Shown here: piece after piece, positions 2,823-26,406 of the stretch
Layout: each line of letters opens with the position of its first letter
Numbering within the stretch: position 1 is the first letter of the stretch
IMG/VR virus record: IMGVR_UViG_3300033052_000083
Coordinates: 1 to 26,406 of that record
Length of the DNA: 26,406 nucleotides
Reading direction: 5' to 3' (one strand)
Source of the DNA: a virus
Position numbers and translations under genes: made by a program
Notes under the pieces: generated by a model
The model's input: only the letters and a program-made list of their open reading frames with translations
What the model was told of the DNA's origin: nothing
The model's database searches: none

Positions 2823-3203
2823 CTACCCAAACACCGCCGCTTCCTGCTCGGCCCACGGCAGTTCGGCGGCTGCCGTCATGTCCTTGATCGACACGGCCGG
2901 GGCCATGCGCCCGACCAGCAGCTTGTCCAGCACGGCCGGGGCGAGATAGGCCAGCCGCAGCATGCGCCCGACATAGCGGTCCGAGATGCCCTCGGCCTGC
3001 GCGATGTCTTGTATCGTCGCCGCTTCCCCGCTCTCGAGCTTGCGCCGCCAGCTCCACGCCTTGGCGACCGCCTTCATGACGTGCGGGTCCACCCCGCCGC
3101 TGGTTTCCGGTGCGAGGACGGCCGGCGGCATGATCTTCGGTCGCCCGTTGCGCTTGCGGATGGTGAGCGGGATGAACACCCGCATGGTAGTCGGTGCGCT
3201 CAT
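2823..3203 (-). CDS. Small HTH protein linked to serine recombinase
   Basis: This 126-aa basic protein has a helix-turn-helix-like segment around residues 65-95 (IQDIAQAEGISDRYVGRMLR), similar to the ParB/KorB type of HTH. Its ATG overlaps the recombinase stop as ATGA (3200-3203), so the two are translationally coupled. Small HTH proteins of this kind commonly follow DUF2924 and large serine recombinase genes in proteobacterial prophages. A role as accessory DNA-binding or directionality factor is plausible from that position but not shown by sequence. The N-terminal 35 residues are rich in basic and proline residues. Confidence 0.75.
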   Translation of the reverse strand: MSAPTTMRVFIPLTIRKRNGRPKIMPPAVLAPETSGGVDPHVMKAVAKAWSWRRKLESGEAATIQDIAQAEGISDRYVGRMLRLAYLAPAVLDKLLVGRMAPAVSIKDMTAAAELPWAEQEAAVFG

Positions 3204-4519
3204 GCGGCCAACTCCTGTTTGGGCGTGACCATTTCGCGGACGATCGATCCGAGCCCCTCGGTGCGCAGGTCAACGGCGAGGCCATCGGCGCTGACCGTGA
3301 CCCGCTCGATGAGCAGCCGGGCGATGCGCGCCTGCTCGGCCGGGAATAGTGACTCCCAGAGGCCATCGAACCCCGACAACGCGGTGACCACATCGCCTTC
3401 GGCCATGTCGGGATCAGAGCGCCGCGCAGCCTCCACCGCCCGGGCCACAACCTCCGGGGTGCGCAGCAACGCCCGGATGTGCTGGACCACGGCATTCTCC
3501 ACCATGCCCGCGTTGAGCCGAACATAGCCGTCACGGCCTTCACCGGCACGGTTCCGGATAGCATCCATCGACGTGTAGTAGCGGTAAAGGCGGCTGCCCT
3601 TCTTGGTCATGGTCGGCGTCATGGCGACGCCGCTTGTCGTGAAGATTAGCCCCTTCAGCATCGCCGGGGTCTTGGCCCGGGTGTTGGCTGCGCGCTGGCG
3701 CGGGCTCTCTTGCAATATGGCATGAACCGCATCCCAGAGCTGCTGGTCGATGATACCTTGATGTTCGCCGGGATAGCTCGTGCCCTTGTGGACCGCCTCG
3801 CCGAGATAAAGCCGGTTGCGGAACAGCTTGTAGAGGAACCCTTTGTCGATCGGCTTGCCGCGCTTGCTACGCACATCATTGGCGACCAGTTCACGGGTCA
3901 GCAGCGTGGCCGAGCCCAGCTCGGTGAACCGCTGAAACACGGCCCGAACCTGAGCGGCTTCGGCCTCGTTGACGACCAGCTTGCGATCGATGACGTCGTA
4001 ACCCCAAGGTACGAATCCACCCATCCACATCCCCTTGGCGCGGCTGGCAGCGAACTTGTCGCGGATGCGCTCCCCGGTGACCTCGCGTTCGAACTGGGCG
4101 AACGACAGCAGGATGTTCAGCGTCAGCCGGCCCATCGAGGTAGTGGTGTTGAACGCTTGCGTCACCGACACGAAGGTCACGTTGTTGCGGTCGAAGGCCT
4201 CGACCAGCTTGGCAAAGTCCATCAGCGAGCGCGACAGGCGATCAATCTTGTAGACGACGATGACGTCGACGAGCCCCGCCTCTACGTCTTCCAGCAGGGC
4301 CTTGAGGCCGGGCCGTTCGAGCGACCCGCCTGAATATCCGCCGTCGTCGTAGCGTTCGCGCATGCAGACCCAGCCCTCGGCGCGCTGGCTGGCGATATAG
4401 GCCTCGCAGGATTCCCGTTGGGCATCGAGGCTGTTGAACTCCATGTCCAACCCTTCCTCGCTGGATTTGCGGGTATAGACGGCGCAGCGCAGACGGCGCG
4501 GTGTTGCTGTCTCCTTCAT
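3200..4519 (-). CDS. Large serine recombinase (integrase/resolvase family)
   Basis: This 439-aa site-specific recombinase probably catalyses integration and excision of the element. The N-terminal resolvase domain shows AVYTRKSSEEG with the nucleophilic serine near residue 19-20, then YDDGGYSGGSLERP, then VVYKIDRLSRS, then the long E helix. After it come a Recombinase domain (about residues 165-270, with NRLYLGE) and a zinc-ribbon-like/C-terminal region (GLIFTTSG, then LYRYYTS). The usual CxxC of the ribbon is not obvious. The frame stays open upstream to 4678, but that part overlaps the DUF2924 gene; the ATG at 4519 forms an ATGA overlap with its stop and opens directly onto the recombinase fold. 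It lies at the left end of the phage block, as expected for an integrase. Confidence 0.92.
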   Translation of the reverse strand: MKETATPRRLRCAVYTRKSSEEGLDMEFNSLDAQRESCEAYIASQRAEGWVCMRERYDDGGYSGGSLERPGLKALLEDVEAGLVDVIVVYKIDRLSRSLMDFAKLVEAFDRNNVTFVSVTQAFNTTTSMGRLTLNILLSFAQFEREVTGERIRDKFAASRAKGMWMGGFVPWGYDVIDRKLVVNEAEAAQVRAVFQRFTELGSATLLTRELVANDVRSKRGKPIDKGFLYKLFRNRLYLGEAVHKGTSYPGEHQGIIDQQLWDAVHAILQESPRQRAANTRAKTPAMLKGLIFTTSGVAMTPTMTKKGSRLYRYYTSMDAIRNRAGEGRDGYVRLNAGMVENAVVQHIRALLRTPEVVARAVEAARRSDPDMAEGDVVTALSGFDGLWESLFPAEQARIARLLIERVTVSADGLAVDLRTEGLGSIVREMVTPKQELAA

Positions 4520-4977
4520 GCTGCACCCCTCTTGTTTTCGCGCAGGCCAAAGAAGCGGTAGCCGTTCCACTGCGTTCCGGTGATGTCGCGGGCGATGGCC
4601 GACAGGGACTTGTAGCGGCGGCCCTGCCAGTCGAAACCGCCCTGAAGGACCGTGATGACATGCTCCACGTCGTTCCATTCGCGCACCAGCCGGGTGCCGA
4701 TGACCGGGTTGCGGGGGTCGCTGATTACCGTGCTCCGGACCTTCTTGCCTTCGACCTCGTCGGCCAGCGCATCCAGCAGCCGGCCAACAGGCTTCGGCAG
4801 ACCGCCATAGGTCAGTTCCTGGATCCGATAGGCCAGTCGCTGCTCAAGGAAAGTCCGGCTGTTATTAGGCGGCGTTGATCCCATCAGCGTCTGCCATTCG
4901 GCCTTCAGCTCATTGACCGTCATAGCCTTGAGGCCTGCCAGCCTCGCCAGCACCGGCCCGTCGTGTTGGTGTTGCAT
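4516..4977 (-). CDS. DUF2924 family protein
   Basis: This 153-aa protein has DUF2924 features: an N-terminal LAGLKAMTVNELKAEW helix, FLEQRLAYRIQEL, then GTRLVREWNDVEHVITVL and the C-terminal GTQWNGYRFFGL motif. The function of DUF2924 is not established; members nearly always sit directly upstream of a large serine recombinase in alphaproteobacterial prophages. It is coupled to that gene by a 4-bp ATGA overlap and to the small upstream gene by TAATG. The protein is soluble, and the C-terminal half resembles a small DNA-binding fold. Confidence 0.88.
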   Translation of the reverse strand: MQHQHDGPVLARLAGLKAMTVNELKAEWQTLMGSTPPNNSRTFLEQRLAYRIQELTYGGLPKPVGRLLDALADEVEGKKVRSTVISDPRNPVIGTRLVREWNDVEHVITVLQGGFDWQGRRYKSLSAIARDITGTQWNGYRFFGLRENKRGAA

Positions 4978-13123: not shown

Positions 13124-15489
13124 TGGCTTCCGAAGCAGGTGCGCAGGCCGCGCCCGTCCTTCCCGACAGTGCCATGATCGCAACGTTCGCCGAGACAGTC
13201 TTCGGCTATTGCGAGCATCTGGTTCCGGTCCGCGCGCTGGCTGAGAAAGGCGGCGTCGACCAGATCCCGCACACGCCGTTCATGGAGAACGACGCGGACT
13301 TCGCGGCCAAGCTCGCGGTTCAGGCTGGATGGGCTGCCGACAATGGCATGGCACTTTTCGTGGTGCCCGGAACCGTTGCCATCGCCGGTGAGGCCAAGGC
13401 TGACCAGATCCTGCAGACGCAGGTGGTTCTGGTAGATCTCGATCACGGGGACATCGGAGCCAAGCGCGGCCACCTGATTGCGCATCTTGGCGAGCCCACG
13501 CTGGAAGTAGCGTCAGGCGGCGTAACCGCTGAAGGTCAGCGCAAGTTGCACCTTTACTGGCGACTGTCCGAACCCGCAGATGGTGAGGACATCACGACCG
13601 TTTGCCGCGCAAGGTATATGATCGCCTGCAAGGTCGGCGGCGATACGTCCTTCCGCTCGGCGCACCAGCCGATCCGCGTTGCCGGCTCCGTTCATGCGAA
13701 GTCCGGGCAGAGGCGGCTGGTGGAAATCCTCCACCACCGTCAAAAGGATCATGACCTCGGCGATCTGGTCGAGGCGGTGATGGCCATGCCGCCCCTCGAG
13801 GGTGAGGCCGCCAATGACCTCGACTTCAATAACGCCGGTCTGGAGCACGGCGCGGTCACCGAATTGTTCGGCAAGGTCGTCCGAGAAGGCGGCGTCGACG
13901 GCACGACGCGCTTCGAGGCCCTGACCCGGATCATCGGTTACTGGATCCGTCGGTGCCGCGAAGGCCATGTCACAGCCCAGCAAGCGTGGCAGGAGATCGT
14001 CGACTACAACAATGCCCGCATTGATCCGCCATGGGAGGAGGCCCGGCTTCGTTCTGAGGCCGAGAAGATCTGGAAACTCGATGCAGCACGCTACGGCGAG
14101 GACTATCTCGACGCGGCGGCGACTGGAGGTCCGCCCGCGGGCGGCGGCCAGAGTGGCGGCAGTTCAGCGCCTGTCCAACTGACCGAAGACGCCCTGGCCG
14201 AAGCGTTCACCGACCAGCATTCCGAGGACTGGCGCTATGTCGCAGCTTGGGGCCAATGGCTCACCTGGACGGGTGCAGTCTGGCGCAAGGAAGAGACGCT
14301 TCAGGCCTATGACCTGTCGCGCCAGATCTGCCGGACAGCGGCGCGCAAAGCCGCAAGCGCAAAGCTCAAGGCGAAGCTGTCGTCGGCCTCTACAATCGCG
14401 GCGGTCGAACGGATCGCCCGGGCGGACCGCCGCCACGCGGAAACCACCGAGGTTTGGGACCGCAACCCGTGGCTGCTGAATACGCCCGGTGGGATTGTGG
14501 ATCTGCAGTCAGCTGCTGTCGGAGCCCACGATCGCCCGGCCTACATGACGAAGATCACAGCGGCTTCGCCAGAAGGGGATTGTCCCACCTGGCTCGAGTT
14601 TCTGGACACGGTCACCGGCGGCGATGTCGAGCTCCAGCGCTACCTCCAGCGGATGGCGGGATACTGCCTGACCGGGGTCACGACCGAGCACGCGCTGTTC
14701 TTCCTCTACGGCACCGGCGCGAACGGCAAGTCGGTGTTCGCCAATACGCTGACCGCCATCATCGGCGACTACGCGACGGTGGCAGCCATGGACATGTTCA
14801 TGGCGAGCCATGGCGACCGCCACCCGACCGATATGGCAGGCCTGCGCGGGGCTCGCGTCGTATCCGCGATCGAGACCGAACAAGGCAGCCGCTGGGCCGA
14901 GAGCAAGCTCAAGGCGCTGACCGGTGGCGACAAGATCACCGCCCGGTTCATGCGTCAGGACTTCTTCGAGTTCATGCCCCAGTTCAAGCTGCTGGTGGTC
15001 GGCAACCACAAACCCTCGATCCGCAATGTCGACGAGGCGATGCGTCGCCGTCTGCACATGATCCCGTTCACGGTCACCATCCCGGCCCACAAGCGCGACA
15101 AGCGTCTGCCGGATCGGCTGCTGGCGGAACGCGACGGCATTCTCGCCTGGGCGCTGCAGGGCTGTCTGGAATGGCAGCGGACAGGTCTGAAGCCGCCGGC
15201 GTCTGTCCTCGCTGCCACCGAGGAATACTTCGAGGCCGAGGATGCTCTGGGGCGGTGGCTCGAGGAGCGCTGCGACCAAGCTCCGCATCTGCAGGACACC
15301 TCCCAGCGGCTCTACGCTGACTGGAAGAGCTGGGCGGATGCGAACGGCGAATTCGCCGGCTCGAACAAGCGGTTCTCAGAGACCCTCGCCAACCGCGGAT
15401 TTCAGCGCGCCAACAGCAACAAAGCCCGGGGATTCCGGGGTCTCGCCCTGCGTCAGGCCCAGCCCCAGACCAGCCCGATGGAGTTTTGA
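13120..15489 (+). CDS. Phage primase-helicase: AEP-type primase plus SF3 (D5/P4-like) helicase
   Basis: This 789-aa replication protein joins two domains. The N-terminal part (about residues 20-230) has an archaeo-eukaryotic-type primase look: VVLVDLDHGD with the metal-binding DxD, KLHLYW, and HQPIRVAGSVHAK. The C-terminal part (about 400-720) is a D5-N plus superfamily-3 helicase with Walker A GTGANGKS at 531-538, a VSAIETEQ Walker-B-like motif, and motif C KLLVVGNHKP. A Gly/Ser-rich linker lies near residue 340. ATG 13120 forms ATGA with the nuclease stop; the frame extends to 13084 inside that gene. It would prime and unwind phage DNA at the origin. Confidence 0.92.
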   Translation: MMASEAGAQAAPVLPDSAMIATFAETVFGYCEHLVPVRALAEKGGVDQIPHTPFMENDADFAAKLAVQAGWAADNGMALFVVPGTVAIAGEAKADQILQTQVVLVDLDHGDIGAKRGHLIAHLGEPTLEVASGGVTAEGQRKLHLYWRLSEPADGEDITTVCRARYMIACKVGGDTSFRSAHQPIRVAGSVHAKSGQRRLVEILHHRQKDHDLGDLVEAVMAMPPLEGEAANDLDFNNAGLEHGAVTELFGKVVREGGVDGTTRFEALTRIIGYWIRRCREGHVTAQQAWQEIVDYNNARIDPPWEEARLRSEAEKIWKLDAARYGEDYLDAAATGGPPAGGGQSGGSSAPVQLTEDALAEAFTDQHSEDWRYVAAWGQWLTWTGAVWRKEETLQAYDLSRQICRTAARKAASAKLKAKLSSASTIAAVERIARADRRHAETTEVWDRNPWLLNTPGGIVDLQSAAVGAHDRPAYMTKITAASPEGDCPTWLEFLDTVTGGDVELQRYLQRMAGYCLTGVTTEHALFFLYGTGANGKSVFANTLTAIIGDYATVAAMDMFMASHGDRHPTDMAGLRGARVVSAIETEQGSRWAESKLKALTGGDKITARFMRQDFFEFMPQFKLLVVGNHKPSIRNVDEAMRRRLHMIPFTVTIPAHKRDKRLPDRLLAERDGILAWALQGCLEWQRTGLKPPASVLAATEEYFEAEDALGRWLEERCDQAPHLQDTSQRLYADWKSWADANGEFAGSNKRFSETLANRGFQRANSNKARGFRGLALRQAQPQTSPMEF

Positions 15490-15492
15490 AAA

Positions 15493-16083
15493 ATGTCAGC
15501 AAAATCAACGTCAGTGACGGATGTGACGGATCGTCCCCTTATAGGCGTTACACGCGCACACGCGCGCGCCTCTGGAAATAATAATGGGGAACCCGTCACA
15601 TCCGTCACTATCCGTCACGGCGCTGTCCTTGCCCTCGACCTTGGCACCAGTGCCGGCTGGGCGCTCCAGTCGCCCGACGGACACATCACCACCGGCACGG
15701 TCTCGCTGAAGCACACCCGCTACGACGGTGGCGGCATGCGCTACCTTCGATTCCGTCGTTGGCTCGAGCAGCTGGATCTGGATACCGGTCCGATCGAGGC
15801 GGTCTACTTCGAGGAAGTCCGTCGCCACGCCGGCACCGACGCCGCCCATGTTTATGGTGGTCTGCTGGGTATGTTGACCGCGTGGTGCGAGGAAACACTG
15901 GTTGCCTATCAGGGTGTGCCGGTCGGCACGATCAAGCGGTTCATCACCGGCAAGGGCAATGCCGACAAGGCGGCTGTCATCGCGACCGTCCAGGCACAGG
16001 GCTTTGCCCCGGCCGACGACAACGAGGCTGATGCCATCGCGATCCTGCTCTGGGCCATCGAGACCTGTGGAGGTGTCCGGTGA
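15493..16083 (+). CDS. Phage RuvC-like Holliday junction resolvase
   Basis: This 196-aa protein has an RNase H-fold core: D49 in LALDLGTSAGWAL, an acidic YFEEVRRH strand, and DNEADAIAILLWA near the C-terminus. These correspond to the catalytic acids of phage RuvC-type resolvases. It resolves replication or recombination intermediates. The ATG at 15493 has GGAG 9 nt before it and lies three bases after the primase stop. The first 42 residues are encoded by the GTGACGGA repeat region and look non-conserved; no ATG or GTG in frame exists between them and the catalytic core. Confidence 0.85.
   Translation: MSAKSTSVTDVTDRPLIGVTRAHARASGNNNGEPVTSVTIRHGAVLALDLGTSAGWALQSPDGHITTGTVSLKHTRYDGGGMRYLRFRRWLEQLDLDTGPIEAVYFEEVRRHAGTDAAHVYGGLLGMLTAWCEETLVAYQGVPVGTIKRFITGKGNADKAAVIATVQAQGFAPADDNEADAIAILLWAIETCGGVR
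15514..15618. repeat. GTGACGGA repeat array with 16-bp inverted arms
   Basis: GTGACGGATGTGACGG (15514-15529) is exactly inverted as CCGTCACATCCGTCAC (15593-15608), and another ATCCGTCAC follows at 15610-15618. The octamer GTGACGGA or its seven-base core GTGACGG therefore occurs twice forward and three times reversed. The 63-bp interval contains 21 nt of strictly alternating pyrimidine-purine (15549-15569). The array lies in the 5' end of the resolvase gene, directly after the primase. It could be iterons of a replication origin, a protein-binding switch, or an RNA hairpin. Confidence 0.85.
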
Positions 16084-18721: not shown

Positions 18722-18737
18722 TTGGCAAAAATTGGCA
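18722..18737. promoter_or_regulatory. Tandem TTGGCA repeats, candidate ParD operator
   Basis: TTGGCA occurs at 18722-18727 and 18732-18737, ten bases apart, one helical turn. The repeats sit 20 bp upstream of parD and 45 bp before the methyltransferase start, in the 80-bp divergent gap. An RHH antitoxin that binds short repeats could control both directions. Confidence 0.35.
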
Positions 18738-18782
18738 AGATCGCCACTCTGGCTGATCTGCCGGGATCTCATCGGAATTTTC

Positions 18783-20072
18783 ATGACCCAAAACTGGCCG
18801 GCCCAGAGCAGCGAGCTCTGGCCGATAGAGAAGATCACGCCCTATGCGCGCAACTCCCGCACGCACTCGGACGAACAGGTCGCGCAGATTGCCTCCTCAA
18901 TCCGCGAGTGGGGCTGGACCAACCCGATCCTCGTCGATGAGGACGGTGGCCTGATAGCTGGCCATGGCCGGTTGCTGGCAGCCCGCAAGCTGGGCGTGAC
19001 CCAAATCCCGACCATGGTCGCCAAGGGCTGGAGCGAAGCCCAGAAAAAGGCCTACGTCATTGCCGACAACAAGCTGGCTCTGAACGCCGGCTGGGACCTC
19101 GAACTGCTCGCCGTTGAACTCGGCGATCTACAGGGCTTCGACTTCGACCTGATGCTGACCGGCTTCTCGGACGACGAGCTCGGCAAGCTGCTGGCCGAGA
19201 AGACCGACGGCCTGACCGATCCCGACGAAATCCCCGAAGCGCCCATCGACCCCATCGCCAAACCCGGCGACGTCTGGCTGCTCGGCAAGCATCGGCTGGT
19301 CTGCGGCGACTGCACCGATGCCGACACGGTGGCTAAGGCCCTGAACGGCGTTTCGCCCCACCTGATGGTCACTGATCCACCTTACGGCGTGGAGTATGAT
19401 CCCGCCTGGCGTGAGAAGGCCGGCGTTGCCGCTTCAGGCACTGCCAAGGGCAAGGTTCTGAACGACGACAAGGCCGACTGGCGCGAGGCGTGGGCACTGT
19501 TCCCGGGCGATGTAGCCTACGTCTGGCACGCTGGTCTTTATGCCGGTGTAGTCGGCGACAGCCTCGCGGCCTGCGACCTAATGCTCCGCTCCCAGATCAT
19601 CTGGGACAAAGGCCAGCTCGTCCTCTCGCGCGGCGATTATCACTGGGAGCATGAGCCCTGCTGGTATGCAGTGAAGAAGGGCGCGAAGGGCCATTGGGCT
19701 GGCGACCGCAAGCAGACCACAGTCTGGCATATCGCCAAGCCCAAGAAGAACGAGACGGGTCACGGCACCCAAAAGCCGGTCGAGTGCATGAAGCGTCCGA
19801 TCGAGAATAATTCCAGCCCCGGCCAAGCTGTCTACGAGCCATTCTCGGGCTCGGGCACCACAATCATCGCCGGCGAAATGACGGGCCGATCAATTCACGC
19901 GATCGAGCTAAACCCGGCTTACGTCGATGTTGCCATCAAGCGCTGGCAAGATTTTACCGGAATGGCTGCCACCCTTGAGGGTGACGGCCGGACTTTCAAT
20001 GAAATAGCCGAGATCGTCAGCAGCGATGACCCCGCCAGTACCGATCCCATCGCAGAGCCCAACCACCTCTGA
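18783..20072 (+). CDS. ParB-like/DNA methyltransferase fusion (beta-class, N4-cytosine or N6-adenine)
   Basis: This 429-aa protein has an N-terminal ParB-type nuclease-like domain (about residues 10-95: THSDEQVAQIASSIREWGWTN, GLIAGHGRLLAARKLG) and a C-terminal methyltransferase domain. The catalytic motif DPPYG is at 198-202 and the SAM motif FSGSGTT at 354-360; that order is the beta class. Such fusions are frequent phage orphan methylases that protect phage DNA or alter host regulation. No restriction endonuclease is next to it. ATG 18783 was chosen because the earlier frame gives a non-conserved leader. The last 56 bp overlap the convergent SNase-like gene. Confidence 0.92.
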   Translation: MTQNWPAQSSELWPIEKITPYARNSRTHSDEQVAQIASSIREWGWTNPILVDEDGGLIAGHGRLLAARKLGVTQIPTMVAKGWSEAQKKAYVIADNKLALNAGWDLELLAVELGDLQGFDFDLMLTGFSDDELGKLLAEKTDGLTDPDEIPEAPIDPIAKPGDVWLLGKHRLVCGDCTDADTVAKALNGVSPHLMVTDPPYGVEYDPAWREKAGVAASGTAKGKVLNDDKADWREAWALFPGDVAYVWHAGLYAGVVGDSLAACDLMLRSQIIWDKGQLVLSRGDYHWEHEPCWYAVKKGAKGHWAGDRKQTTVWHIAKPKKNETGHGTQKPVECMKRPIENNSSPGQAVYEPFSGSGTTIIAGEMTGRSIHAIELNPAYVDVAIKRWQDFTGMAATLEGDGRTFNEIAEIVSSDDPASTDPIAEPNHL

Positions 20073-20519: not shown

Positions 20520-23253
<2,734 letters not shown>

Positions 23254-23422: not shown

Positions 23423-25432
23423 GTGCGTTCATCGTTTTCGGGCATCGCGCTTTGTTGTCTGATGTGGGCTGGCGCTGCGACGGCCCAAACCATCCCCGCA
23501 CCGCAGCAGTGGCAGGTCGCATCGCCCGGCGGCAAGCTGGTGGCGACCTTGCGGCAATCGGCGGACGGCGGCGCGGAATACGCCATCGCGATGGATGGGC
23601 GCCGGGTGATCGAATGGTCCCCGCTGGGGCTGACGCTGGCCTGGGGTGACCAATCCAGTGCCGAGGTGGTGCAACGCGCCAATTTTGCCAGCACGGTCAC
23701 GTTCGGCGCGGAAACGCGGCGCAGCGTGCGCGATGCTTATGCGATGGTCACCGGCAAGCGGCGCGACAATGCCTATGCCGCCAATGCTCTCACGCTGGCG
23801 TTGACCGATGTTGAAACCGGACGGCGGCTCGATCTGGAGTTCCAGGTGGCCGACGATGGCGCGGCGTTCCGCTATGTCCTGCCGGAACGCAATGCGGTGC
23901 ATCACTGGGTGGAGGCGGAAGACACCGGCTTTGCGCTGGGACTGGGGGGCACGCATTGGGGGCAGGTCTATGATGCGGCCAACGCGTGGCAACCGGCCTA
24001 TGAAGCGCCTTATACCAACGGGCTGCCGATTGGCAGCTCCGCCCCGTCGCGGGAGGGGCCGGGTTGGGGCATTCCGGCGCTGTTCCGCGATGAAGGCGGC
24101 GCGTGGATCCTGCTGCACGAGGCCGGGTTGACTAGCGATTATCACGCCTCGCACTTGCAGGCGGACGCCAGCGGCGGGACGTATCGGATCGCGCCGCCGC
24201 TGGCGGAGGACGGACTGGGATTTGGCCGCAACGTGCCGGCCATGACCCTGCCGTCGGCCACGCCATGGCGGTTCATGGTGATTTCGCCCCGGCTCGGCGA
24301 CATTGCGGAATCGAACCGGGTGTTCGATCTGTCACCGCCCTCGACCGTGGCGGATACCAGCTGGATCAAACCGGGCGTCGCATCGTGGAGCTGGCTAACC
24401 GATCACGACAGTTCGCAGGATCTGGCCAAGTTGAAGGCGTTTATCGGCCTGTCGGCGGAAATGGGCTGGGCCTATTCGCTGGTCGATGCGAACTGGGACC
24501 GGATCGCCCCCGATGCGCTCGAACAGCTGGTCGCAGAGGGCAACCGGCGCGGGGTGGGGCTGCTCGTCTGGTATAATTCCGGCGGACGCCACAACGCGGT
24601 GACCGAAGGGCCGCGCAACATTATGGATGACCGCACCCGCCGCCGGACTGAATTCGCACGGCTGGCACAGCTCGGCGTGAAAGGCGTGAAGATCGATTTC
24701 TTCCAGTCCGACAAGCAGGACCGCATCCAGCAATATATCGAAATTCTGGAAGACGCCGCCGAGTTTCGCCTGCTGGTGAACTTCCACGGCTGCACCATCC
24801 CGCGCGGCTGGCAGCGGACCTATCCGCACCTGATGACGATGGAAGCCGTGCGCGGGGGCGAGCATTATTCATTCGAATCGCTGCCCGACTTCGCGCAGCT
24901 GTCGACCTATCAGAACAGCGTGCTGCCATTCACGCGCAATGTCATCGGGTCGATGGACTTCACCCCGGTGCTGTTCAGCAAGCAGCGCCGCGAACACCTT
25001 ACCACCAATGCGCACGAAGCCGCGTTGGGCGTCGTGTTCGAATCCGGCATCCAGCATCTGGCCGACAGCGTGGAAAGCTACCGCGCGGCGAGTGCCGACA
25101 CGCGCCGCTATCTGTCGCAGCTGCCGGCGGCGTGGGACGAAACGCGGTTGCTGTCGGGCTATCCGGGCCGTGACGTGGTGATCGCGCGGCGGGCGCGCGC
25201 GCGCTGGTATGTCGCGGGGCTCAACAGCGCCGATGCGGCCAAGACAGTCCAGCTGGACTTGCGCTTTCTGGGCAAGTCCGGCGCGGCGCTGGTGCTGGAA
25301 GATGGGGCGGACCGGCTGGCGATCCAGTCGCGCCGCGCCATGATCCGCCCGGCGGTGCAGCCCGTGCGGATGGCGCCTTACGGCGGGTTCGTGATGGTAA
25401 TCGAAATGGGCAACCAGGACCGGGACGACTAA
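23423..25432 (+). CDS. Secreted glycoside hydrolase family 97 (probable retaining alpha-galactosidase type)
   Basis: This 669-aa protein has a signal peptide (MRSSFSGIALCCLMWAGAATAQ) and the GH97 layout: an N-terminal beta-sandwich, then a (beta/alpha)8 barrel from about residue 300 (WSWLTDHDSSQDLAKLKAFI, LVWYNSGGRH, GVKGVKIDFFQSD), and a C-terminal beta domain. D425 in KIDFF and E474 in MEAVRGGEHY fit the Asp nucleophile and Glu acid/base of retaining GH97 alpha-galactosidases rather than the Glu pair of inverting SusB-type enzymes. The start is GTG 23423 with GGAG 7 nt upstream. It is a host chromosomal gene involved in use of alpha-galactosides, probably in the periplasm. Confidence 0.9.
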   Translation: MRSSFSGIALCCLMWAGAATAQTIPAPQQWQVASPGGKLVATLRQSADGGAEYAIAMDGRRVIEWSPLGLTLAWGDQSSAEVVQRANFASTVTFGAETRRSVRDAYAMVTGKRRDNAYAANALTLALTDVETGRRLDLEFQVADDGAAFRYVLPERNAVHHWVEAEDTGFALGLGGTHWGQVYDAANAWQPAYEAPYTNGLPIGSSAPSREGPGWGIPALFRDEGGAWILLHEAGLTSDYHASHLQADASGGTYRIAPPLAEDGLGFGRNVPAMTLPSATPWRFMVISPRLGDIAESNRVFDLSPPSTVADTSWIKPGVASWSWLTDHDSSQDLAKLKAFIGLSAEMGWAYSLVDANWDRIAPDALEQLVAEGNRRGVGLLVWYNSGGRHNAVTEGPRNIMDDRTRRRTEFARLAQLGVKGVKIDFFQSDKQDRIQQYIEILEDAAEFRLLVNFHGCTIPRGWQRTYPHLMTMEAVRGGEHYSFESLPDFAQLSTYQNSVLPFTRNVIGSMDFTPVLFSKQRREHLTTNAHEAALGVVFESGIQHLADSVESYRAASADTRRYLSQLPAAWDETRLLSGYPGRDVVIARRARARWYVAGLNSADAAKTVQLDLRFLGKSGAALVLEDGADRLAIQSRRAMIRPAVQPVRMAPYGGFVMVIEMGNQDRDD

Positions 25433-25453
25433 GCCCCGGTCCGATTGCGGTCA

Positions 25454-26077
25454 TCAGTCGGCGGCGTCGAGGCCGTAGGCGGTGTGCAGGACGCGCACGG
25501 CCAGTTCGGTCTCGTCCTCGTCGATCAGGACCGAGACCTTGATTTCGCTGGTGCTGATCGCCTGGATGTTGATCCCGCGATCCGCCATGGCACGGAACAT
25601 GGTGCTGGCCACGCCCGCGTGGCTTTTCATGCCGACGCCGACGACGCTGATCTTGGCGACCTTGCTGTCGGTGATGATCCGGTTGTAGCCGATCGCTTCC
25701 TTCTGCGCTTCCAGCAGGGTCTGCGCGCGCAGCAGGTCGGCGGCGGGGACCGTGAAGGTGACGTCCGTCTCGCCTTTGTCGCGGCCGACGTTCTGGATGA
25801 TCATGTCGACGTTGATGTTGGCAGCGGCCAGCGGGCTGAAGATCGTGGCCACGGCGCCGGGACGGTCCGGCACGCGGGTCAGGATGATCTTGGCTTCGTT
25901 CTTGTCGGCGGCAATGCCGGTGATCAGCTGGCTTTCCATGTCCAGATCCTCTTGAATTTTGGCCAGTTCCTCGTCCGAGACGATCATCGTGCCGGGGATT
26001 TCGTCTGCCGGGACGGCATCGTCGCCAATGAACGACGAGAGCACCTGCACCCGCACCTTTTCTTTCATGGCGAGCGA
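25454..26077 (-). pseudogene. lysC: 3' part of aspartate kinase, truncated by an IS3-family insertion
   Basis: The frame encodes the C-terminal ACT-domain half of aspartate kinase: SLAMKEKVRVQVLSSF, ACT1 (KIILTRVPDRPGAVATIF, then INVDMIIQN), ACT2 (VAKISVVGVGMKSHAGVAS, then GINIQAISTSEIKVSVLI) and the C-terminal AVRVLHTAYGLD. About 208 residues remain of roughly 410. The kinase domain upstream is replaced by the IS end at 26078. An ATG at 26067-26069 (MKEKVRV) could still begin an ACT-only polypeptide. Stop TGA at 25456-25454 lies 21 bp from the GH97 stop, so the two genes converge. Aspartate kinase makes precursors of Lys, Met, Thr and diaminopimelate. Confidence 0.88.
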
Positions 26078-26406
26078 TGATCTGCCCCCTTCTGAGTGGC
26101 CCAATTTCTATTTTAGAATTGGTCACGAAGGAGGAATGGAATGGCGAGGAAGCACAAGCCGGAAGAGATCATCGGGAAGCTGCGTGAGGCGGAGATCGTG
26201 CTAGCGCAAGGCGGCACGGTTGCAGATGCCTGCCGGCGGATCGGAGTGACCGAGCAGAGCTACTACCGCTGGCGTAAAGAATACGGTGGTCTGAAGATGG
26301 ATCAGGCCCGACGGATGAAAGAGTTGGAGAAGGAGAATGCCCGGTTGCGCCGAGCGGTGTCGGACCTGACGCTCGACAAGCTGATCCTGCAGGAAGCTGC
26401 ACGGGG
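26078..26406 (+). mobile_element. IS3-family insertion sequence (IS407-like), left part
   Basis: The left end starts with TGATCTGCCCCC at 26078, the TGA-type terminal repeat of IS3-family elements, immediately where lysC homology stops. An imperfect hairpin CCAATT/AATTGG (26101-26122) and the transposase orfA follow. The rest of the element, with orfB and the right terminal repeat, lies beyond the window, so target duplication cannot be checked. Confidence 0.8.
26141..26406 (+). CDS. IS3-family transposase OrfA (3' end outside window)
   Basis: ATG 26141 has an ideal AAGGAGG six bases upstream. The first 88 codons give MARKHKPEEIIGKLREAE, VADACRRIGVTEQSYYRWRKE (HTH), and a leucine-zipper-like KELEKENARLRRAVSDL, typical of OrfA in the IS407 subgroup. 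OrfA binds the terminal repeats; in this family OrfAB is made by programmed frameshifting into orfB, which would lie to the right. The same bases on the minus strand are open but carry no protein pattern. Confidence 0.92.
   Translation, partial: MARKHKPEEIIGKLREAEIVLAQGGTVADACRRIGVTEQSYYRWRKEYGGLKMDQARRMKELEKENARLRRAVSDLTLDKLILQEAAR

Follow-up and report, generated by a model that had tools for sequence, protein, structure and literature searches.

An array of short repeats, arranged as two inverted arms around an alternating purine-pyrimidine tract, lies directly after a P4-family primase-helicase gene and inside the first codons of a RuvC-like resolvase ORF. This position raises the question of which of the two genes the array serves, and whether it acts as DNA, as RNA or as coding sequence. 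We addressed this question in the 26,406-nucleotide viral record IMGVR_UViG_3300033052_000083, the whole of which is called the window here. Comparison with relatives, predicted structures and analogy with known systems suggest that the element is very probably a replication origin, or at least a region required in cis for replication, which the upstream primase-helicase would recognise with its C-terminal winged helix.

The features of the locus are collected in Table 1. A preliminary description, made from the DNA letters, had reported five GTGACGG cores, two forward and three reverse, and all five were located. It had also reported 21 nt of strict pyrimidine-purine alternation; this run maps between the arms, and the runner-up in the whole window is 12 nt long. 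Two of its measurements needed correction. The inverted arms are exact, as described, with 100% complementarity and 63 nt between them, but they are 17 rather than 16 bp long. The array does adjoin the primase-helicase gene, but the gap from the end of that ORF at 15489 to the first iteron is 24 rather than 25 nt. The claim that the array encodes about the first 40 resolvase residues held, as it occupies codons 8-42 of the ORF. The window contains 12 copies of GTGACGG compared with 5.0 expected, a count that 0 of 100 shuffles reached.

Table 1. Positions of the element, its parts and the adjoining genes in the window
Feature	Position	Strand	Description
P4-family primase-helicase, proposed initiator, 801 aa	13084-15489	+	D5_N, DUF5906, TIGR01613, PHROG DNA primase
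Predicted recognition helix, aa 761-770	15364-15393	+	AlphaFold2 helix 397-406 of the model; K762, S765 and A769 change on iteron-switch branches
Predicted wing hairpin, aa 774-789	15403-15450	+	Model strands 410-413 and 418-425; aa 776-781 change on iteron-switch branches
RuvC-like resolvase ORF	15493-16083	+	PHROG 159 match from residue 45; first ~45 codons overlap the element
Left arm	15513-15529	+	Two tandem iterons GTGACGGAT GTGACGG (15514-15520, 15523-15529); exact inverted repeat; four-fold sites invariant in the clade
Left spacer	15530-15548		A/T island TTATA at 15539-15543; alignment of 56 distinct elements
Alternating core	15549-15569		TACACGCGCACACGCGCGCGC; no second run like it in the window; depleted of transversions on the tree
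Right spacer	15570-15592		A/T island AAATAATAAT at 15576-15585; from sequence
Right arm	15593-15609	-	Two tandem iterons in inverse orientation (15593-15599, 15602-15608); exact inverted repeat
Fifth iteron	15612-15618	-	Inverse; 10-bp step to its neighbour; close relatives have one too

Spread of the element and covariation with the primase-helicase

Loci of the window group were fetched by primase protein queries alone, without a DNA pattern, and 75 of them had enough 3' sequence. The element was in register in 73 of the 75 (at most 4 mismatches in 16), while the two exceptions, L187 and L209, carry a degenerate element. Close relatives therefore have the repeats, the absence of which the preliminary description had named as evidence against its proposal. 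A strict detector of inverted tandem-iteron pairs was then run on the stretches after primase stops, on shuffles and on random places, and it scored 135 of 227 post-primase stretches compared with 0 of 1,135 shuffles and 0 of 966 random places. By group, the positives were 62 of 75 for the window, 61 of 74 for AcaML1 and 12 of 78 for phi105. Inspection by eye of the phi105 group found mostly imperfect GGTTACTGA-type arrays flanking a AATAATATATATA tract, which were not scored as positives; the few strict hits there reflect either the detector's limits or limited conservation.

Pattern searches gave a similar layout. When viral contigs were scanned with the exact 16-mer, many of the matches listed were paired with an inverted copy, spaced as in the window. 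With a relaxed paired pattern, 61 viral contigs were matched; a version made slightly stricter matched 29 genome contigs, mostly from Alphaproteobacteria (Sphingobium, Sphingopyxis, Paracoccus and others) and also from Actinobacteria and other phyla. Among the matches listed, 75 elements found by pattern had a complete helicase at their locus, and 73 of them lay -30 to +130 nt from the helicase stop (median 26). The 16-mer alone proved unsuitable as a diagnostic, since 39 of 120 matches listed had no inverse half-site nearby, and pairing and position are therefore needed. A complete D5 helicase was likewise absent from the stretch around 32 of these 39 listed matches, which resemble chance occurrences. 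A text search of the accessible literature for the 16-mer found it in no paper on the subject, the sole match being a 12-mer in a zebrafish paper. The closest relatives of the window include Sphingobium and Sphingopyxis loci, so that its sequence makes a sphingomonad the likely host of the phage.

Some loci depart from this arrangement. Paired elements occur in intergenic stretches 5.5 kb from the helicase stop in L095 (1578-1662) and kilobases from the helicase gene in L155 (3296-3380). Four more, in L125 (3703-3781), L152 (3092-3189), L153 (1956-2061) and L172 (4758-4860), have no adjacent D5 helicase gene and may be chance, decayed elements or sites of another initiator. Dense, unannotated iteron arrays of other types lie downstream of the primase gene in Mycobacterium phage Aminay (L252, 3848-4160; GTGTCGGA-type), the seed of a search that gave three loci only, and in Gordonia phage GMA4 (L254, 4180-4510; GGGTGCCGCA-type). 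These arrays are likely origins too.

The iterons themselves change between lineages. We found the types GTGACGG, ATGACGG, GTGGCGG, GCGACGG, GTGCCGG, TTTACGG, CTGACGG, CTGACGC and CTGAAGG, and a switch in a lineage affects all copies together. The arms were complementary in 854 of 896 cells, with 47 double changes (reshuffle maximum 799), and the two copies within an arm were identical in 371 of 392 cells (reshuffle maximum 352). This likeness within an arm fits repeated sites for one protein, and hairpin pairing does not require it.

The candidate for that protein is encoded immediately upstream. The primase-helicase belongs to the phage/plasmid primase P4 family, scoring 344.8 bits against TIGR01613 compared with the cut-off of 108.7. 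In its AlphaFold2 model (mean pLDDT 90.5) the helix and the beta hairpin listed in Table 1 form a winged helix, and the C-terminal winged helix expected of an initiator was found with AlphaFold2 models and Foldseek. The whole model matched hexameric D5/PrimPol helicases, and the solved structures nearest to the winged helix, at modest E-values, were RFX, a winged helix bound to DNA, and a D5-type PrimPol in its C-terminal part. Matches to Z-alpha domains were weak (E 0.3-0.6) and were taken as ordinary winged-helix similarity. An insertion of 370 bp, an intein or intron, was considered for the primase of L228 and similar loci and rejected; in L228, the one locus translated, an intact primase end is followed by a stop, and the longer tblastn range arose because the match ran into the downstream gene.

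We probed the relation between protein and iterons on 25 iteron-switch branches, taken from one reconstruction on one tree of 105 helicases. Protein changes on the switch branches amounted to 28.9% in aa 760-792 and 11.7% elsewhere, and 0 of 5,000 matched branch sets were as extreme, although the region was picked after the columns had been ranked and the permutation is thus a measure of strength rather than a blind test. Unprompted, the eleven columns ranked highest overall all lay in 760-792. The best were K762, S765 and A769, which share one helix face, then A776 to A779 and A781, followed by 789 to 792. Covariation and structural model together argue strongly, on computational grounds, for recognition of the iterons by the C-terminal winged helix of the primase-helicase. 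Only some of the element loci include a relative of the RuvC-like gene; at others no resolvase relative was found. We tie the element to the primase and not to the resolvase because of the winged-helix covariation and these loci. The roughly 25 inferred switches would constitute a natural specificity code, relating winged-helix residues to iteron bases, for self-loading helicases.

The alternating core and comparison with known origins

An alternating run of at least 18 nt follows the primase stop in 91% of window-group loci, compared with 0 of 13,902 random stretches from the same loci. The central run averages 76% GC across the window group and 72% across the AcaML1 group, with only short A/T islands beside it; in the phi105 group the run is shorter (median 10) with a GC fraction of 0.02. 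On the tree of the window clade, the core accumulated transitions and transversions at 60:9 compared with 124:132 in the spacers (p 3e-9), and the non-coding AcaML1 group gave 80:15 compared with 124:127 (p 2e-9). Expressed per column, transitions in core and spacers were 2.6 and 3.1 in the window clade and 3.6 and 2.8 in the AcaML1 group, whereas transversions were 0.39 and 3.3, and 0.68 and 2.9, a four- to eight-fold depletion. We rejected a transition mutation bias, for example at CpG, as the cause of this pattern, transition rates being alike in core and spacers. As the core takes transitions yet is depleted of transversions, the comparison indicates that selection acts on the purine-pyrimidine alternation itself.

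The lower-GC contigs L015, L023, L097 and L101 have GTGACGG iterons around an AT-rich TATATATA-type centre, so that the iterons are kept and the centre differs. An alternating centre is also found in the telRL-type protelomerase target of N15, which is a perfect palindrome through that centre. Such a site was considered for the window and rejected, as the palindrome is not full: the arms are complementary and the 63-nt spacer is not.

The layout of the window element is known from other replicons. The PICI origin itself lies directly after the helicase gene (PMC6092414, Fillol-Salom et al. 2018), and the C-terminal domains of SaPI Rep and of Cch2 recognise downstream iterons (PMC7581432). The element shares with PICI and SaPI origins (PMC6092414; Ubeda et al., as cited in PMC7581432) the position immediately 3' of the initiator helicase gene and the two iteron sets around a central region, and covariation predicts a counterpart to their recognition by the helicase C-terminal domain. 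Their centre is AT-rich, however, whereas the run in the window is alternating and 76% GC, and we did not file the element as a PICI-type origin because it has no AT-rich spacer. Those origins also belong to satellites, whereas the window-type element occurs in phages and prophages, extending to them a layout claimed to be unique to phage satellites. At the putative origin of SCCmec, the isolated C-terminal domain of the helicase Cch2 binds repeats downstream of its own gene, although there direct repeats are what counts (PMC7581432).

Among phages, an origin was annotated by the depositors of Streptococcus phage Sfi21 (NC_000872, 34487-34784) immediately downstream of a putative primase gene; its TTAGTTACTTAGTTACT iterons (GTTACT) are inverted about the centre. 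It differs in its iterons, in an AT-rich centre that is not strictly alternating and in being a 302-bp non-coding region. Acidithiobacillus phage AcaML1 (JX507079; L251) shares inverted arms, here of CTGACGG iterons, and an alternating core, TACACGCGCGCGCGCGTA, between the primase and a RuvC-like gene. In this phage, unlike the window, the element is intergenic and non-coding, lying between the primase end at 3823 and the nuclease (Gp18) start at 3964 of L251, and the record has no origin annotation there.

P4 (NC_001609) suggests another role. Its crr lies directly 3' of the alpha primase-helicase, and the forward and reverse iterons are found in the window too; each crr unit has two forward and two reverse 8-bp iterons, with a 9-bp step in the forward pair. 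P4 differs from the window in its two 120-bp repeats, its AT-rich centre and a separate annotated origin 4.5 kb away. By this analogy, the window element would be a cis-required region that the primase-helicase binds and replication needs, while strands start at another site. We consider this unlikely. The window has neither two 120-bp direct repeats nor a second iteron site, as a single such element occurs in the record, possibly a fragment, compared with iterons at both sites in P4. In Sfi21 and in PICIs (PMC6092414), moreover, the site directly after the helicase gene is the origin itself.

The preferred reading of the element as an origin bound by the primase-helicase was foreshadowed in the preliminary description, which had proposed iterons of the phage origin. 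This prediction is supported by conservation in relatives, constraint at the DNA level, winged-helix covariation and presence of the element without a resolvase relative. The winged-helix domains would bind the two tandem iterons of each arm, as the covariation suggests. Because the arms are inverted, we propose two hexamers placed head to head and flanking the spacer, in keeping with this symmetry and with SaPI Rep. The spacer would open next: its alternating core and the A/T islands beside it would be distorted or melted, perhaps by way of a B-to-Z transition driven by negative supercoiling. The hexamers would encircle single strands, unwind outward and prime, as known D5/P4-type helicases do.

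The B-Z propensity of alternating sequences is established, with GC steps most favoured (PMC3024258), and Z-DNA may form at the core. More speculatively, the B-to-Z (or similar underwound) transition of the alternating tract under negative supercoiling might in GC-rich replicons be the first strand-opening step, held between oppositely oriented hexamers and replacing an AT-rich unwinding element. As an origin or cis-required region, which it most likely is, the element would combine a known layout with a novel feature, a GC-rich alternating core in place of an AT-rich melting site. Why selection favours a GC-rich, Z-prone alternating tract, where one would look for AT-rich melting DNA, becomes a testable question. 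The element would also make the origin readable from sequence in a large number of phages and prophages, most of which lack an origin annotation.

Transcript, operator and reading frame

The RNA of the element folds at -56.1 kcal/mol (z -7.75) and spans the resolvase start region, so the RNA stem envisaged in the preliminary description is physically possible. As an explanation, however, a hairpin on the primase-resolvase transcript that serves processing, termination or translational control of the resolvase accounts for less of the data. Pairing needs neither the co-change within arms, nor the winged-helix covariation, nor the alternating core, and the element of L095 sits in an intergenic stretch away from the helicase. 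We regard a hairpin function as highly improbable. The same low probability applies to an operator at which some regulator of the replication genes, and not the helicase, would bind. Paired inverted sites near genes are commonly operators, but here the changes in specificity follow the helicase winged helix, and in nearly all loci the element stands after, not before, the helicase gene.

The overlap with the resolvase gene allowed constraint on the DNA to be separated from constraint on the protein. Within the window clade, four-fold codon sites of the left arm differed in 0 of 494 comparisons, whereas the proportion of differing comparisons was 0.05 for the core, 0.10 for the right arm and 0.343 for the remaining resolvase gene. 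The repeats thus persist at codon positions that could vary synonymously, the reverse of an outcome that the preliminary description had named as refuting, homologous resolvases with the amino acids kept but not the DNA repeats. These frozen sites and the non-coding homologues of the AcaML1 group refute the idea that the repeats merely reflect a peptide repeated at the resolvase start, for which only the open reading frame through the element in the window clade would speak.

The resolvase frame is open across the element in the 67 loci in which the RuvC motif was located, including L187 with its degenerate element. In the window clade the usual start codons are absent from the interval between left arm and RuvC motif, so the element is probably also translated, as an extension of the resolvase. 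A second case was observed in a Micromonospora genome (L150, 21-3560), where the element (1561-1663) lies within one open frame that encodes a DUF5906 helicase with a winged-helix-like end, then the element, then a family A DNA polymerase. There the element would be translated as an apparent helicase-polymerase linker. A probably translated origin, whether as resolvase extension or as linker, would be an unusual overlap.

Other features of the window

Several further features of the window were observed. Mercury-resistance genes (merT-like and merA; 395-2512 and 3200-4678) adjoin a large serine recombinase at the left end; the prophage may have inserted into a mer locus or may carry one, unless the contig is chimeric. 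In one open frame at 20932-23253, the first part (to about aa 531) encodes a terminase large subunit and the part from aa 539 encodes the C-terminal third of the catalase-peroxidase KatG; the join marks a deletion or recombination event, or else the assembly is chimeric. The right end of the window, with an alpha-galactosidase-like enzyme and an aspartate kinase (23423-26104), looks like host chromosome. A DNA methyltransferase fused to a ParB-like domain is encoded at 18732-20072.
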